Shown here one piece after another: positions 45,395 through 59,081 of a DNA stretch of 64,000 nucleotides (positions are counted from its first letter, which is position 1; every line of letters begins with the position of its first letter). This DNA comes from Flavobacteriales bacterium (lineage in GTDB: Bacteria > Bacteroidota > Bacteroidia > Flavobacteriales_E > Vicingaceae). The notes below the pieces were generated by a model. That model did not search any database. It was not told where the DNA came from and saw only the letters and a program-made list of their open reading frames with translations. The position numbers were made by a program, and so were the translations under genes. The stretch lies in NCBI GenBank assembly GCA_905339165.1, contig CAJPFH010000006.1:62001-126000 (forward strand). The letters run 5' to 3'.

Positions 45395-46414
45395 TTACTT
45401 TTCTTTTTGGATGGTTGCTAAAACCGTTTCGCCCACCGCTTTTAGGGTTTCTTTATCTATAATGTCCATATTGTCGAGATGGGTATGATGAAAATGTCCG
45501 TAGTGTTCAGTAAATGGGTTCATGTGTACAATATTAATACTTGGTATTTTTAAAATACTATTTACATAGAGATGGTCATCGGTAGTCATACCGGTTTGTT
45601 TATTTATAAAATATTTTTGATATCCTAGTGTATGAGCTGTTTTCCAAACTTTTTGTACTATAGCAGAAGCGTAGTGCATAGAAGTACCTTCCATGGGGAA
45701 GGTGGCATCTTTTGCTCCTACCATGTCTAATAAAATTCCAAATTGGGCGTAATATCCGGGCGTATGCGGATTTTTAGCCCAATACTGAGAACCGAGACAC
45801 CATGATTCGGGCACGTGATTTGTCATGGAATTTTCGGGTTGGCCGTAGTCTTCGGCATCAAAAAAAATTATATCCAGTCCAATATTTGGTTTAGTAATAT
45901 TAATTTGTCTGGCAATTTCTAATAATACACCCACGCCACTAGCTCCATCATTGGCTCCGAGTATAGGTTTGTTCTGGTCTTTGGTGTCTTTGTCGGCAAA
46001 GGGGCGTGTATCCCAGTGTGCAAAAAGTAAAATTCTTTTGGCGTGGGTGGGGTTGTAAGATCCGATGATGTTTTTCATATCGAGCACCTTTTTATTGAAG
46101 GTGGTTACTTTTCCTTCTTGAATTTGCACCTCCCAATTAAATCGTTTTAGTTCGGAAGCTAAGTAATTAGCACACTTGCTGTGTGCATTGGAATTTGGAA
46201 CGCGAGGGCCAAAGGCAACCTGCTTTTCTATAAAAAAATAAGCGGTATCGGCATTAAAATCGGGAGCAATTGGTATAGGTTCTTTTTTGGAATAAATAGA
46301 AGTATCAATGAGGATTTTCTGGTTTTGTTTGGTTTCAGGAGGTGTGTTTTCTCCGCAAGAACCTAAAAGCAGAACAGAAATTGCAAAAAGATTAACTTTA
46401 ATTTTATTTCTCAT
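45395..46414 (-). CDS. M28-family peptidase lipoprotein (glutaminyl-cyclase-like)
   Basis: 339 residues. The signal sequence ends in LLLGSC (lipobox), so it is a lipoprotein. The zinc-peptidase core has the histidine in LFAHWDTRP, the aspartate in [11 protein letters not shown], glutamate/aspartate in [11 protein letters not shown] and the histidine in GHFHHTHLD. This set fits M28 peptidases and also glutaminyl-peptide cyclotransferases, which cyclise N-terminal glutamine. The two cannot be separated here. It starts inside the end of cysS, with an 11-base overlap. Confidence 0.85.
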
Positions 46415-53013: not shown

Positions 53014-54567
53014 TTAATGCTTAGATAATTTAATAATTCTTTCGCCTTGGTTGTATTTTATTGTAACAAGGTAATTGCCCGTGTTTAATGCCGAAATATC
53101 AAGTTCCGATTTTTTATCATTGGGTTTGTAAGATAATAAAATTTTTCCGTTTAGATCTGCTATTATTATTTCGTTAGGAATAAATTTTTCCGACTCAATC
53201 ATTAATTTGTTTTTTGCCGGATTAGGATACATTTTTACTCCATTGTCACTAAATTGTAAACGATTCATACCTGTGCAGTCTAATATGTAAATACTATCAG
53301 AATCTGTATTTGTACAACCATTTATGTCAGTAAAGGAGTATGTAATAACATTCCAACCAATTTGAGCATTTCCGGGATTAAATGTTCCCGAAGAAACACC
53401 ACTGCCTGAGTATGCTCCACCTCCGGGCACCCCTCCAGACAAGGTGAAGGAAGGAGAAGTATTACATAGTGTATCAGAAGAAACCTGAAAGAAAACCGCG
53501 GGCAATGCATTTACCTCAACGGTTACGTAGGCTGAGTCTATACAGCCATTGTTGTGTGTAGCTATTACTTTGTAAGTAGTGGTAGTGTTTATTGCAAATG
53601 GTACTCCATTTGTAACTCCGTTATTCCACACATAAGAATTGCCTCCGTTTCCGGTTAATGTTGCCAAAGTCCCCTCACAAACCGTATCGTTTGGCAACAC
53701 TGAAACAGTTAAGAAAGAAAAAGAATTTATTTCTGTAATGATTACTTTCCCGTTTCCGCTTTGTACCCCTTTGCTATTTGATGGATTGGTTCCAGAGTTA
53801 TAAGAACCGCCACCCCCTCCTCCGGCACGGCAGGAAGAACCTTCGCCTGCTCCTCCTCCGGAGTAACCGCCACCCCCTCCGCAACCACAAACTGCACCAC
53901 CACCTCCTCCGTAACCTCCATGCCCGTTTGGTCCAAATGTGTTTGAACCATTTCCTCCTGTAAATAAGGGAAAAGTAAGTCCTCCCGTACAACCACCTCC
54001 CCACGTGGAATTTTGCCCGTTAGAAAGCCAGCCTGCCCCACCGGAACCCGTTCCGGAGGGAGCGTTTCCAAAACCTCCGTTACCATTTGTTCCTCCTAAT
54101 GCCGAATTAATACCATTACCCTGTGTACCGGAAGTTAAGGTATCTGCATCTATTCCATTTACGCATGCTCCCGGCCAGTTAGTATTACCACCACCACCAC
54201 CACCGGCAGCTATGAATAACACTTTATTGTTTCCACTTCCTTTCCATACAAAGGAGCCACCACCACCTCCTCCTGATGCACCCGCTCCTCCGCAGCTATT
54301 CACATTTCCTTGTTGACCCACTACAATGAATAGGGTATCTCCAAATGCAACACTAAAATTTCCTTTTATTCTTGCCCCTAAGCCCCCATTTGTGTTTCCT
54401 CCCTGAGCTCCAAAAGCTTCTACGCTGACAGAGTTAATACACGGAGGAACTATATATTGTTGTATGCTTCCGTTTTGCACTACCCCATTTGCGTTGTAAG
54501 TTATTTGTGCAACAAGTAAGGAAGACATTAAAAATGTGGTTAAAGGAAACAATATGGTTTTTTTCAT
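53014..54567 (-). CDS. Glycine-rich T9SS type A cargo
   Basis: 517 residues. Signal peptide FPLTTFLMSSLLVAQ. Residues ~40-290 are a glycine-rich region with long runs of Gly separated by Asn, Ser and Ala (GGGGGS, GGYGGGGG, GSGGAGW), the kind seen in cell-surface fibres. An Ig-like domain follows (about residues 300-440). The last ~75 residues are a Por secretion tail (GVKMYPNPAKNKLMIE, LSKH at the end), a T9SS type A signal. Forward frames antisense to the glycine runs are shadows. Ligand unknown. Confidence 0.85.
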   Translation of the reverse strand: MKKTILFPLTTFLMSSLLVAQITYNANGVVQNGSIQQYIVPPCINSVSVEAFGAQGGNTNGGLGARIKGNFSVAFGDTLFIVVGQQGNVNSCGGAGASGGGGGGSFVWKGSGNNKVLFIAAGGGGGGNTNWPGACVNGIDADTLTSGTQGNGINSALGGTNGNGGFGNAPSGTGSGGAGWLSNGQNSTWGGGCTGGLTFPLFTGGNGSNTFGPNGHGGYGGGGGAVCGCGGGGGYSGGGAGEGSSCRAGGGGGGSYNSGTNPSNSKGVQSGNGKVIITEINSFSFLTVSVLPNDTVCEGTLATLTGNGGNSYVWNNGVTNGVPFAINTTTTYKVIATHNNGCIDSAYVTVEVNALPAVFFQVSSDTLCNTSPSFTLSGGVPGGGAYSGSGVSSGTFNPGNAQIGWNVITYSFTDINGCTNTDSDSIYILDCTGMNRLQFSDNGVKMYPNPAKNKLMIESEKFIPNEIIIADLNGKILLSYKPNDKKSELDISALNTGNYLVTIKYNQGERIIKLSKH

Positions 54568-54638: not shown

Positions 54639-54646
54639 TATATTTG
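54639..54646 (+). promoter_or_regulatory. -7 promoter element of the histidine operon
   Basis: TATATTTG, exact TAnnTTTG, four bases before the leader-peptide ATG at 54651. The transcript would begin almost at the leader ATG. Confidence 0.55.
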
Positions 54647-54650
54647 CAGC

Positions 54651-54710
54651 ATGAATAAGAAATTTACACAATTACATATACACCATTTTGCCTGTTGCCC
54701 CCAACGGTGA
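54651..54710 (+). CDS. His operon leader peptide
   Basis: A 19-residue open frame reading MNKKFTQLHIHHFACCPQR. Three of its residues are histidine, in a run H-I-H-H, followed by a cysteine pair and proline. It lies directly downstream of the -7 element, and its stop precedes a terminator and hisG. Short of histidine, a ribosome would stall on the CAT-ATA-CAC-CAT codons (54675-54686). The reading and its setting are convincing; expression is not tested. Confidence 0.8.
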   Translation: MNKKFTQLHIHHFACCPQR

Positions 54711-54771
54711 GCGGTGTGTGTATTGTGTAAACAATTTATAACAAGGCTTGCCGCAAATGGTAAGCCTTTTT
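54666..54771 (+). promoter_or_regulatory. Histidine attenuator (protector, antiterminator and terminator stems)
   Basis: Three mutually exclusive pairings can be drawn. Protector: 54666-54672 plus 54676-54684 with 54713-54728 (16 pairs, a 3-base bulge, covering the His codons). Antiterminator: 54705-54712 with 54746-54753 (8 pairs, with two G-U), whose left arm covers the leader stop codon. Terminator: 54743-54752 with 54759-54768 and a T-run. Stalling at the His codons frees 54705-54712 to form the antiterminator. A ribosome reaching the stop masks it and the terminator forms. Structures were drawn by hand. Confidence 0.72.
54743..54771 (+). terminator. Attenuator terminator of the his operon
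   Basis: AAGGCTTGCC and GGTAAGCCTT form a 10-bp stem with one G-U and a six-base loop, then TTT and a further T-run. It ends 13 bases before the hisG ATG. Confidence 0.8.
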
Positions 54772-54783
54772 AATTTTAAAAAA

Positions 54784-55638
54784 ATGAAACTGAAAATTGC
54801 AATTCAAAAATCGGGGAGGCTACATGAAGATTCCATGCAACTGCTGAAAGAATGTGGTGTGGGAATTAATAATGGAGCAAATAAATTAAAAGTTGAAGCA
54901 AGTCATTTTCCGTTGGAAGTATATTTTTTAAGAGATGATGATATTCCACAGTATGTGGCCGATGGTGTGGCTGACATTGGTATTGTAGGCGAAAACGTAC
55001 TAAACGAAAAAGGAAGCAAGGTGCACTGTATTGAAAAAACGGGTTTCGGTAAATGCCGTTTATCTATAGCAATTCCAAAAGATAGCAACATAAAAACACT
55101 AAAACAATTAAACGGAAAAAAAATAGCAACAAGTTATACCCATATTCTTTCTAACTATTTAAAAAAACAAAAAATAAAAGCAGAAATTCATGAAATAAGT
55201 GGCTCGGTTGAAATAGCCCCTAGTATAGGATTATCTGATGCAATCTGTGATTTGGTTAGTTCAGGAAGCACGCTTTTTTCGAATGGACTTAAAGAATTTG
55301 AAACAGTTTTTTATTCCGAAGCGGTGCTTATTGCTAATCCGCATCTTAATGCTGCGAGAAACGCCCTGCTAAATAAATTACTTTTTAGAATACGTGCTGT
55401 AAAAAAGGCCACCAATAACAAATACATCTTACTAAACGCTCCCAATCATAAGCTAAAGGAAATATGTAAACTACTTCCCGGAATGAAAAGCCCTACCATT
55501 TTACCATTAGCCGAAAAAGGATGGAGTTCGGTGCATTCGGTGTTAGATGAAAATGATTTCTGGAACAATATAGAAAAATTAAAAGCAAGTGGAGCACAAG
55601 GTATTTTAGTAGTTCCAATTGAAAAAATGATTGTGTAA
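54784..55638 (+). CDS. hisG: ATP phosphoribosyltransferase, long form
   Basis: The first, committed step of histidine synthesis. Starts at MKLKIAIQKSGRL at 54784; an in-frame ATG at 54748 lies inside the attenuator terminator. About 284 residues, long form with the C-terminal regulatory (ACT-like) domain, so it is the histidine-inhibited type and needs no HisZ. Periplasmic-binding-like core motifs include VADIGIVGENVL and LVSSGSTLFSN. First gene of hisGDCB. Confidence 0.95.
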   Translation: MKLKIAIQKSGRLHEDSMQLLKECGVGINNGANKLKVEASHFPLEVYFLRDDDIPQYVADGVADIGIVGENVLNEKGSKVHCIEKTGFGKCRLSIAIPKDSNIKTLKQLNGKKIATSYTHILSNYLKKQKIKAEIHEISGSVEIAPSIGLSDAICDLVSSGSTLFSNGLKEFETVFYSEAVLIANPHLNAARNALLNKLLFRIRAVKKATNNKYILLNAPNHKLKEICKLLPGMKSPTILPLAEKGWSSVHSVLDENDFWNNIEKLKASGAQGILVVPIEKMIV

Positions 55639-55661
55639 AAATATTAAGGCAAAAAGTAAAG

Positions 55662-56936
55662 ATGATTCCAATTATTGAATATTCGAAACAAAGCAAAAAC
55701 AGATTGTTTCTAAAACGAAAAGTTTTTGAAAACGATGCATTAGAAAAGGCTGTTTCTGAAATTTTAAGAAATATAAAACAAAACGGTGATAAAGCAGTAC
55801 AGAAATATTCAGCTACATTCGATGGCTACAACAGTTCTACGTTTCTTGTTACAACAGCCGAATTTATAGAAGCAGAAAAACAAATTTCTAAAACGCTGAA
55901 ACAAGCCATACAAAATGCATACAACAATATTTATAAATTTCATTTATCGCAGCAGAATAACGAGTCGCCTGTTCTAGTTCACCCCGGGGTAAAGTGTTGG
56001 AGAAAATCGGTACCTATTCAAAAAGTAGGTTTTTACATTCCTGGAGGAACGGCTCCTTTATTTTCCACTGTTCTTATGTTGGCCATTCCCGCTGGTATTG
56101 CCGGTTGTGTCGAAAAAATAATGTGTACTCCTTGTAACAGTGCAGGGGAAATAAATCCGGCTATTTTATATACTGCCAAACTGTGCGGGATAGAGAAAAT
56201 TTTTAAAGTAGGGGGAGCACAAGCTATTGCCGCTATGGCCTACGGCACAGAAACCATTCCGAGGGTATATAAAATTTTTGGTCCAGGAAACCAATATGTT
56301 ACTTGTGCCAAACAACTTGTACAAAAAGAAGGGGTAGCCATTGATATTCCTGCGGGTCCATCGGAAGTAGCTATACTTGCCGACCAATCAGCAAACCCCG
56401 CATTTGTTGCAGCCGACATGCTTTCTCAGACAGAACATGGTATCGATAGTCAGGCGGTTTTAGTAACCAATAGCAAATCAATGACAGAGAGTGTGCAACA
56501 AGAATTAGAAAAGCAACTTGCCCTCTTACCTCGAAAAGATATTGCTTCCAAAGCACTACAAAACAGCTGCATGGTTTTAGTTACAGATCTTACCGAAGGA
56601 ATTGAATTATTGAATGAGTATGCCCCCGAGCATTTAATTCTTTCTGTGGCTGATACCCCCCAATATGCCGATAAAGTAATTAATGCCGGCTCTGTTTTTT
56701 TGGGAAATTATTCGCCAGAAAGTGCGGGTGATTATGCTTCGGGTACCAATCATACCCTGCCTACCAATGCTTTTGCAAAGGCATATAGCGGAGTATCGCT
56801 CGATAGTTTTATAAAAAAAATTACGTTTCAGGAAATTACACTGCAAGGATTGCGGCAATTATCCGTAAGCATCACTGAAATGGCCGAAGCAGAAGGCTTA
56901 CATGCCCATGCGAATGCAGTTAAAATAAGATTGTAA
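55662..56936 (+). CDS. hisD: Histidinol dehydrogenase
   Basis: Oxidises histidinol to histidine in two NAD-dependent steps with a zinc ion. 424 residues. Zinc-site stretches are SQTEHGIDSQAVLV and APEHLIL, and the C-terminal AEGLHAHANAV is typical. It follows hisG by 23 bases. Confidence 0.96.
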   Translation: MIPIIEYSKQSKNRLFLKRKVFENDALEKAVSEILRNIKQNGDKAVQKYSATFDGYNSSTFLVTTAEFIEAEKQISKTLKQAIQNAYNNIYKFHLSQQNNESPVLVHPGVKCWRKSVPIQKVGFYIPGGTAPLFSTVLMLAIPAGIAGCVEKIMCTPCNSAGEINPAILYTAKLCGIEKIFKVGGAQAIAAMAYGTETIPRVYKIFGPGNQYVTCAKQLVQKEGVAIDIPAGPSEVAILADQSANPAFVAADMLSQTEHGIDSQAVLVTNSKSMTESVQQELEKQLALLPRKDIASKALQNSCMVLVTDLTEGIELLNEYAPEHLILSVADTPQYADKVINAGSVFLGNYSPESAGDYASGTNHTLPTNAFAKAYSGVSLDSFIKKITFQEITLQGLRQLSVSITEMAEAEGLHAHANAVKIRL

Positions 56937-56938
56937 AT

Positions 56939-57970
56939 ATGTTTGACCTAAATAATATTATACGAGAAAACATAAAAAAAATGGAGCCGTATTCTACCGC
57001 ACGTGATGAGTACAAAGGTAGCGAAGGTGTTTTTTTAGACGCCAACGAAAGCCCTTTTAATACAGGATTAAATCGTTATCCCGATCCGCACCATACGGAA
57101 CTGAAAAAAATATTTTCTCAATTAAAAAAAGTGCAACCCGAAAATATTTTATTTGGTAATGGCAGCGATGAAATTATTGATTTAATCTATCGGGTTTTTT
57201 GTGAACCCGGTTTACATAATGTCATTATTTTGCCCCCTACATACGGTATGTATAAGGTGGCTGCACAGATAAATAATGTAGAGGTAAAAGAAGTGTGCTT
57301 AAATGAAATTTTTCAACCTGATGCAGAAAAAATATTCTCAGAAATAAACGAAAATACACGTATTGTTTTTTTCTGTTCCCCCAATAATCCCACCGGAAAT
57401 ATAATTAACAAAGAAGCGATTAAAACGGTATTAAAAAAATTTAAAGGAATAGTAGTTGTTGATGAAGCGTATATTGATTTTTGCGAAGAACACTCTTGGT
57501 TAAAAGAGTTAACTAATTACCCTAATTTAATTATAATGCAAACCTTTTCTAAGGCCTGGGGAATGGCCGGAATTCGTTTAGGAGCAATGTTTGCATCTTC
57601 TTCTGTAGTTGAGGTATTGCATAAAATAAAACATCCTTACAACATTAACATATTAACACAACGAGTGGCCCTACAAGCACTGCAAAATAAAAATCAAAAA
57701 GGGGCTTGGGTTAAAGCTATTGTTTCTCAAAAAGAGATAATGCAAAAAGTATTAGAAACATTGCCTTTTACAGAAAAAGTGTATCCTTCCGATGCAAATT
57801 TTTTACTGGTAAAATTTCTCGATTCAGAAAAAATATTTACCCACTTGTTAGAACAAAAAATAATTGTTCGCAATCGCTCAAATGTTCAACTTTGCTCGGG
57901 ATGCTTAAGAATTTCTGTGGGAACTATGGATGAGAATTTAAAACTACTCGAAGTACTTAAAAATTTCTGA
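56939..57970 (+). CDS. hisC: Histidinol-phosphate aminotransferase
   Basis: A PLP enzyme converting imidazole-acetol phosphate to histidinol phosphate. The PLP lysine is in TFSKAWGMAG, and VVDEAYIDF and FCSPNNPTG are present. 343 residues. It begins two bases after the hisD stop and ends one base before hisB, so the operon is very tight. Confidence 0.95.
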   Translation: MFDLNNIIRENIKKMEPYSTARDEYKGSEGVFLDANESPFNTGLNRYPDPHHTELKKIFSQLKKVQPENILFGNGSDEIIDLIYRVFCEPGLHNVIILPPTYGMYKVAAQINNVEVKEVCLNEIFQPDAEKIFSEINENTRIVFFCSPNNPTGNIINKEAIKTVLKKFKGIVVVDEAYIDFCEEHSWLKELTNYPNLIIMQTFSKAWGMAGIRLGAMFASSSVVEVLHKIKHPYNINILTQRVALQALQNKNQKGAWVKAIVSQKEIMQKVLETLPFTEKVYPSDANFLLVKFLDSEKIFTHLLEQKIIVRNRSNVQLCSGCLRISVGTMDENLKLLEVLKNF

Positions 57971-57971
57971 T

Positions 57972-59081
57972 ATGCAAAAAATTTTGTTTATAGACCGAGA
58001 TGGAACACTTATTTGGGAGCCACCTGATAATTTTCAGATTGACCGATTTGAAAAACTAACATTTATACCCGGTGTAATAACCTGGCTCGGAAAAATTGCA
58101 CGCGAAATGAACTATCAGTTGGTTATGGTTACCAACCAAGATGGGTTGGGTACAAAAGCCTTTCCTGAGGAATCTTTTTGGCCGGTTCATCGTTTTATGA
58201 CAGAAACATTAAAAAACGAGGGAATTGTTTTTACAGCAGAATGTATAGACCGAAGTTTTGAACACGAAAATAAATCTACACGAAAACCAAATACAGGGAT
58301 GCTTACTTCGTATCTGCAAGGAAATTACGATTTAAAAAACTCTTTTGTAATTGGCGATAGAATTACCGATGTGAAACTAGCCATCAATTTGGGAGCAAAG
58401 GCTATACTTTTAGAAAATTACGACTCTCCCAAGGGATGGGAAAAAGAAATTAGCTTAGTAGCAAAAAATTGGAAAGAGATTTATTTGTTCCTTTCCAAAC
58501 ACGAGCGAAATTCTATACACATAAGAAAAACAAACGAAACCCAAATAGAAGTAACTATCCATTTAAACGGATTTGGCAATGCAAACATTGAAACCGGAAT
58601 AGGCTTTTTTAACCATATGTTAGAACAAATTGCCAAACATGCCAACATCGATTTACAAATTAATGCAATCGGAGATTTGCATATAGACGAGCACCATACC
58701 ATAGAAGACATCGGTATTGCCTTAGGTGAAGCATTTGCTATTGCTTTAGGGAAAAAAATAGGAATAGAGCGTTACGGATTTTGTTTACCTATGGACGATT
58801 GCCTGGCTCAGGTTGCCATTGATTTTGGTGGCAGGGCATGTTTGGTTTGGAATGCAGAATTTAAACGCGAAAAAATTGGAGAAATGCCAACCGAAATGTT
58901 TTCTCATTTTTTTAAATCGTTTTGCGATGGAGCTAAATGCAATGTAAATATTAAAGCCGAAGGAAACAACGAGCATCATAAAATTGAAGCCATTTTTAAA
59001 GCTTTTGCAAAGGCTATTAAAATGGCCACAACCAAACACGAACACAATTTTAATTTGCCCAGCACCAAAGGGGTTTTATAA
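57972..59081 (+). CDS. hisB: Bifunctional histidinol-phosphatase and imidazoleglycerol-phosphate dehydratase
   Basis: 369 residues. The N-terminal HAD phosphatase has DRDGT (D8, D10). The C-terminal dehydratase (from about residue 177) has NHMLEQIAKHANID, DEHHTIEDIGIALGEA and EHHKIEAIFKAF metal motifs. This two-domain form is known from E. coli and many Bacteroidota. It is the last his gene seen here; hisH, hisA, hisF and hisI do not follow. Confidence 0.96.
   Translation: MQKILFIDRDGTLIWEPPDNFQIDRFEKLTFIPGVITWLGKIAREMNYQLVMVTNQDGLGTKAFPEESFWPVHRFMTETLKNEGIVFTAECIDRSFEHENKSTRKPNTGMLTSYLQGNYDLKNSFVIGDRITDVKLAINLGAKAILLENYDSPKGWEKEISLVAKNWKEIYLFLSKHERNSIHIRKTNETQIEVTIHLNGFGNANIETGIGFFNHMLEQIAKHANIDLQINAIGDLHIDEHHTIEDIGIALGEAFAIALGKKIGIERYGFCLPMDDCLAQVAIDFGGRACLVWNAEFKREKIGEMPTEMFSHFFKSFCDGAKCNVNIKAEGNNEHHKIEAIFKAFAKAIKMATTKHEHNFNLPSTKGVL

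Follow-up and report, generated by a model that had tools for sequence, protein, structure and literature searches.

A probable ribosome-mediated histidine attenuator upstream of hisGDCB in a member of the Bacteroidia and its relatives

A leader peptide and three competing helices upstream of hisG

The region immediately upstream of hisG in the window (the whole stretch of DNA analysed here, 64 kb in length) very probably holds a ribosome-mediated transcription attenuator of the his operon, whose parts, from a short leader ORF to an intrinsic terminator, span positions 54651-54768. Comparison with related genomes supports histidine attenuation as the common regulatory plan for his operons across the sampled class. 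The features of the locus are as follows.

54639-54646, + strand: Bacteroidota-type -7 box TATATTTG (consensus TAHHTTTG), from the sequence; the exact box is frequent in relatives
54651-54710, + strand: leader ORF, ATG at 54651 and TGA at 54708-54710, product MNKKFTQLHIHHFACCPQR, read directly from the sequence
54675-54677, 54681-54683 and 54684-54686, + strand: His codons His9, His11 and His12, from the sequence
54663-54731, + strand: leader (1:2, anti-antiterminator) hairpin, from the minimum free energy (MFE) fold and from own versus swapped arms
54705-54712, + strand: antiterminator left arm CGGTGAGC, over the TGA stop and the sense codon before it, from constrained folds and covariation
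54715-54743, + strand: predicted extension on the inner side of the antiterminator (54715-54720 and 54722-54726 pairing with 54731-54743), from the MFE fold constrained by a stalled ribosome
54746-54753, + strand: antiterminator right arm GCTTGCCG, mostly within the terminator 5' arm, from constrained folds and covariation
54743-54779, + strand: intrinsic terminator AAGGCTTGCC-GCAAAT-GGTAAGCCTT (54743-54768) plus U-rich tail, from covariation and presence in relatives
54784-55638, + strand: hisG, first gene of the operon (NCBIfam TIGR00070 and TIGR03455)
54784-59081, + strand: hisG-hisD-hisC-hisB, the operon that the element would regulate (NCBIfam TIGR00070, TIGR03455, TIGR00069, TIGR01141 and NF003937, all above cut-off)

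The leader ORF has 19 codons, three of them for His, and direct reading of the sequence bears out the histidine leader peptide that the first-pass annotation had placed upstream of hisG. A short ORF rich in His codons thus stands before the operon of the pathway whose product it encodes in its codons, and an intrinsic terminator lies between this leader and the first structural gene, with hisG starting at 54784, 15 nt past the terminator; hisB, at the end of the operon, is bifunctional according to NCBIfam.

The RNA from 54640 to 54783 folds with an MFE of -44.1 kcal/mol, compared to a mean of -27.8 for shuffled sequences (z = -4.3), and none of 200 shuffles equalled it. In this fold the leader hairpin consists of a 19-pair helix (54663-54672 and 54676-54684 with 54713-54731, leaving a 3-nt bulge) capped by 10 further pairs (54687-54692 and 54694-54697 with 54702-54711), and its own arms pair at -21.8 kcal/mol, against -8.7 for swapped arms. 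The 16-pair stem described at first pass (54666-54684 with 54713-54728) is real and forms the core of this larger helix, but the three His codons do not all sit within its left arm: only His11 is wholly inside, His9 beginning in the bulge and His12 contributing a single base. Since the cap takes up most of the antiterminator left arm, the leader hairpin and the antiterminator are mutually exclusive. The antiterminator comprises 8 pairs, 2 of them G-U, and the terminator stem pairs 54743-54752 with 54759-54768 before the U-rich tail; the 8-pair stem had been described as exclusive with the terminator and as covering the TGA with its left arm, and these pairings are as described. At the window locus the antiterminator is distinguished from pairings with swapped terminators (p = 0.016) but is only modestly better than shuffled sequence of equal composition (p = 0.11). 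The exclusion of the helices follows the classical 1:2 / 2:3 / 3:4 plan, in a three-helix, trp-like layout.

Ribosome-constrained folding and proposed mechanism

Co-transcriptional folding was modelled with ribosome footprints at the His codons or at the stop and with several RNA 3' ends. Without a ribosome, the antiterminator has a probability of 0.00 both in RNA reaching 54753 and in the full transcript, where the terminator reaches 0.97. When either His11 or His12 occupies the A site and transcription has reached 54760, the antiterminator rises to a probability of 0.97-0.995 (0.85-0.90 with His9), and with the ribosome at the stop it is again 0.00, the terminator standing at 0.97 on the full transcript. 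These constrained folds reproduce in the model the logic first proposed, by which a ribosome at the stop hides the arm and one stalled on His frees it, and together with the covariation reported below they point to an antiterminator and a terminator that exclude each other, the arm being free at a stall and masked at the stop. With the full transcript at equilibrium the terminator is still favoured (0.88-0.95) despite a stalled ribosome, so antitermination would have to be kinetic; attenuators in general depend on kinetic control.

From the ORF, the helices, their mutual exclusion, and the conservation and covariation that we observe, we infer stalling, termination and a response to histidine in vivo. 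RNA polymerase would start at or beside the leader ATG, and a ribosome would load on the leader ORF immediately. When charged tRNA-His is scarce, this ribosome would stall at His9, His11 or His12, opening the leader hairpin and freeing 54705-54712, which could then pair with 54746-54753 once the latter is made, so that the terminator would be blocked and transcription would proceed into hisGDCB. When histidine is plentiful, the ribosome would reach the stop at 54708 and cover the antiterminator arm, and the terminator at 54743-54768 would form. With no ribosome at all, the leader hairpin would sequester the arm and the terminator would again form, making off the default state.

Conservation and covariation among relatives

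HisG was identified in 16 of the 46 family genomes and in 173 of the 396 class genomes, and upstream regions were recovered for 147 class loci. A His-run leader ORF, defined as a short ORF in which three His codons stand almost side by side, precedes hisG in 134 of these 147, compared to none in the reverse-strand sequence and 0-2 in shuffles; the same was found at 76 of 79 loci from named genomes, many Chitinophaga species included, a set that partly overlaps the class set. Chitinophaga japonensis (L175) and C. skermanii (L202) are culturable relatives whose layout is of this kind. The leaders carry 3-7 His codons and have a median of 18 residues, which puts the window leader, with three His codons and one Ile between them, at the low end together with the other leaders that have three (15 of 134 in all). 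An intrinsic terminator follows the leader in 121 of the 134 relatives but in only 3 of 134 shuffled sequences. Across 116 loci, the antiterminator duplex has a mean energy of -13.5 kcal/mol, compared to -9.5 when terminators are exchanged between dissimilar loci and -8.6 when the arms are shuffled, and the own terminator is preferred over the swapped one in 108 (Wilcoxon p ~2e-19, a nominal value since related genomes are not independent).

Covariation was assessed in an alignment of 41 sequences (A1) built without reference to structure. Antiterminator cells are paired in 88.5% of cases, against 27-47% in slid controls, and five of the eight pairs show two-sided changes; the outermost pair, 54705-54753, is not conserved (unpaired in 23 of 35 relatives), while the other seven are. 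In the terminator 99% of cells are paired and nine of ten pairs have changed on both sides. The leader hairpin, very strongly supported at the window locus, has weaker support across relatives, where its own pairing beats the swapped one in 85 of 116. The antiterminator has been built from unrelated sequences, CGGTGAGC/GCTTGCCG in the window, CTCAGGCG/CGTCTGAG in the family and CGCGGGTGGCT/AGCCCACCCGC in locus L030; what is conserved in the alignment is the His codons, the antiterminator and the terminator, with spacers free to vary. RNAalifold recovered the terminator alone from the same alignment, as expected for helices that are mutually exclusive. The idea as first put forward turned in part on a His run in homologues and on covariation of the antiterminator, and it survived on these two counts. 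The feature that the first-pass annotation had put in its title, an antiterminator arm overlapping the leader stop codon, is indeed present but is no special twist: classical attenuators work by the terminating ribosome masking the antiterminator arm, and the overlap occurs in 77 of 116 loci (66%) compared to 53% with swapped terminators, a mild enrichment that we did not use as evidence.

Two further observations concern the leaders of relatives. At 44 of 102 loci (about 8 expected in shuffles) an arm complementary to the terminator 5' arm plus loop lies beyond the terminator, e.g., GTCTGAGTAAA / TTTACTCAGAC, with examples at L014, L016, L117, L137, L157 and L167, and its end is 12-16 nt from the hisG ATG in the majority of CTCAGGCG-type leaders. 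Such an arm can come into play only once the terminator has been read through, when it might serve as a second gate at the level of translation; the window does not have it, nor is there room for it. There is also a second class of his leaders, ending in HHSS and with TTCCTC..GAGGAA across the stop codon (L072, L075, L087, L089, L091, L097 and L100), in which no strong intrinsic terminator precedes hisG, suggesting a different read-out, translational or Rho-dependent.

Promoter and start of the leader transcript

The box TATATTTG ends 4 nt before the leader ATG. In Flavobacterium johnsoniae the -7 box lies at -12 to -5, and its last letter is followed by a start 4 or 5 nt downstream (PMC6847099); taking G 54646 as -5, this spacing predicts a +1 at 54651, on the first letter of the leader ATG itself. 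For the genus, the sequence thus predicts a leaderless leader mRNA, and both of its members (the window and L008) have the exact box at 4 nt from the ATG even though the spacer letters differ (CAGC and TCGT). As a rule for the whole class this was rejected, the predicted 5' UTR measuring 0-1 nt in just 7 of the 86 relatives with an exact box (median 13 nt). It is plausible, if somewhat short of probable, that the leader ORF is translated from a leaderless mRNA with its transcription start on the ATG, the sensing ribosome initiating at the emerging 5' end, and that the his attenuators of Bacteroidia form an RNA family of their own outside Rfam, in which short 5' UTRs keep the first ribosome near the polymerase without a Shine-Dalgarno sequence. 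Shine-Dalgarno sequences are generally absent in Bacteroidota, and the way in which a ribosome would load without one, yet fast enough to govern termination, can be tested.

The leader ORF could instead have an ordinary 5' UTR from another promoter, the nearness of TATATTTG to the ATG being a coincidence. This alternative, which we consider rather unlikely, competes with the leaderless detail only and leaves the attenuator itself untouched. In Bacteroidota only a small minority of mRNAs are leaderless, 5.5% in F. psychrophilum (PMC9723704), and 5' UTRs under 10 nt make up about 3.7% in Bacteroides thetaiotaomicron (PMC7366714), figures that favour a leadered transcript, as do the several nucleotides of 5' UTR predicted for most relatives. 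Coincidence is harder to reconcile with the constant 4-nt distance in the two genus members, or with the frequency of the exact box in the 60 nt that precede the leader start (86 of 134 relatives, compared to 4 expected in shuffles), around 20 times chance at that position throughout the class.

Operon context and history

The gene upstream (53014-54567) lies on the opposite strand, so the region is a promoter region and not the end of another operon. This bears on a very improbable reading, that of a constitutive intrinsic terminator and hairpin (e.g., a small RNA, or the place where a transcript from upstream ends) next to a short ORF there by chance. Intergenic intrinsic terminators are common, and the MFE state is precisely leader hairpin plus terminator; however, no coding transcript ends here, His-run ORFs before hisG are far more frequent in relatives than the 0-2 expected, and the antiterminator covaries. 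Least likely of all is that a ligand-binding riboswitch, a T-box or a protein-controlled terminator senses histidine or tRNA-His directly and without a ribosome, histidine T-boxes being known to control his genes in Firmicutes and Corynebacterium glutamicum (PMC9413887), but here no Rfam family, T-box included, matches at cut-off in the window or, apart from a single match to SRP RNA, in the hisG leaders of 20 relatives, and conservation falls on the His run and on the antiterminator and terminator helices, the spacers varying freely.

The ribosome-mediated attenuator appears to have travelled with its operon. In a HisG tree the proteins of the window and of its genus mate cluster with Chitinophagales-type sequences in one clade (100/100), and another clade (100/100) holds ten HisG proteins from their own family. 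The antiterminator type tracks HisG, with GGTGAGC/GCTTGCC in the window and CTCAGGCG/CGTCTGAG in the ten family members. This suggests that the his operon and its attenuator were acquired together, horizontally, which is the simplest reading of the tree and of the antiterminator types, the alternative being hidden paralogy. In the family, 30 of 46 genomes gave no HisG match.

The sole other combination of promoter, short ORF and terminator in the window is found at 45612-45710, with another TAHHTTTG box, a short ORF (11 protein letters) and a terminator-like hairpin (45680-45710); it has no codon run and its antiterminator pairing is weak.

Comparison with known systems

The Rfam model for the enterobacterial his leader (RF00514 His_leader, gathering cut-off 49 bits) had no match in the window or in the whole genome (G000), and none of 41 genomes had one above cut-off, weak matches in G022 and G035 lying on contigs other than that of hisG. 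Rfam T-box models likewise gave no match in the window. With curated and relaxed thresholds, Phe_leader (26 bits) and Thr_leader (21 bits) appeared as weak look-alikes and were rejected, reflecting a shared leader-plus-terminator shape and not membership. The element has the sequence-level features of the his-attenuator mechanistic class, yet is outside the RF00514 sequence family, and alignment A1, with its 41 sequences, could seed the missing Rfam family.

Histidine attenuation in Escherichia coli is the textbook leader-peptide case (PMC10989985), and the enterobacterial hisL element (RF00514) resembles the one described here in its short leader peptide with a His run, its terminator with a U-tract before hisG and its alternative structures set by the ribosome (PMC10989985). 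They differ in that E. coli hisL has seven contiguous His in 16 aa and the window leader three interrupted ones in 19 aa. The enterobacterial leader also has a longer chain of alternative stems, compared to three helices in the window.

Within Bacteroidetes, Bacteroid-trp RNA (RF01692) is a cis-regulatory RNA listed by Weinberg et al. 2010 (PMC2864571). It concerns another operon and other codons than our element and has no match in the window. We take it to be a trp leader. Attenuators in Bacteroidetes/Chlorobi are reportedly mentioned by Vitreschak et al. 2004. Candidate his attenuators have been proposed in another phylum, the Firmicutes (the Bacillus cereus group, Clostridioides difficile and others, and Erysipelotrichales), which similarly have 3-5 His codons in leader peptides and a terminator plus antiterminator upstream of his operons (PMC9413887). 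An evolutionary survey from 2021, devoted to his genes in the superphylum of the Bacteroidota, mentions attenuation for enterobacteria only (PMC8305728). Our literature search for a Bacteroidetes histidine attenuator with a leader peptide found nothing, the nearest report being PMC9723704 (2021). It describes a conserved and structured element 5' of hisG, with no Rfam match, in F. psychrophilum and other Flavobacteriaceae, together with strong indications that amino-acid operons of flavobacteria are attenuated through leader peptides. That element shares phylum and gene with ours, and the main text of the paper gives neither hisG arms nor mechanism for it; many relatives analysed here combine the CTCAGGCG/CGTCTGAG antiterminator with the post-terminator arm, the latter absent from the window. 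The mechanism is an ordinary one, classical ribosome-mediated histidine attenuation, and the element belongs to a known kind; what the analysis adds is conservation and covariation traced through the class, the lack of an Rfam family, a leaderless leader predicted for the genus, and an attenuator probably transferred along with its operon.
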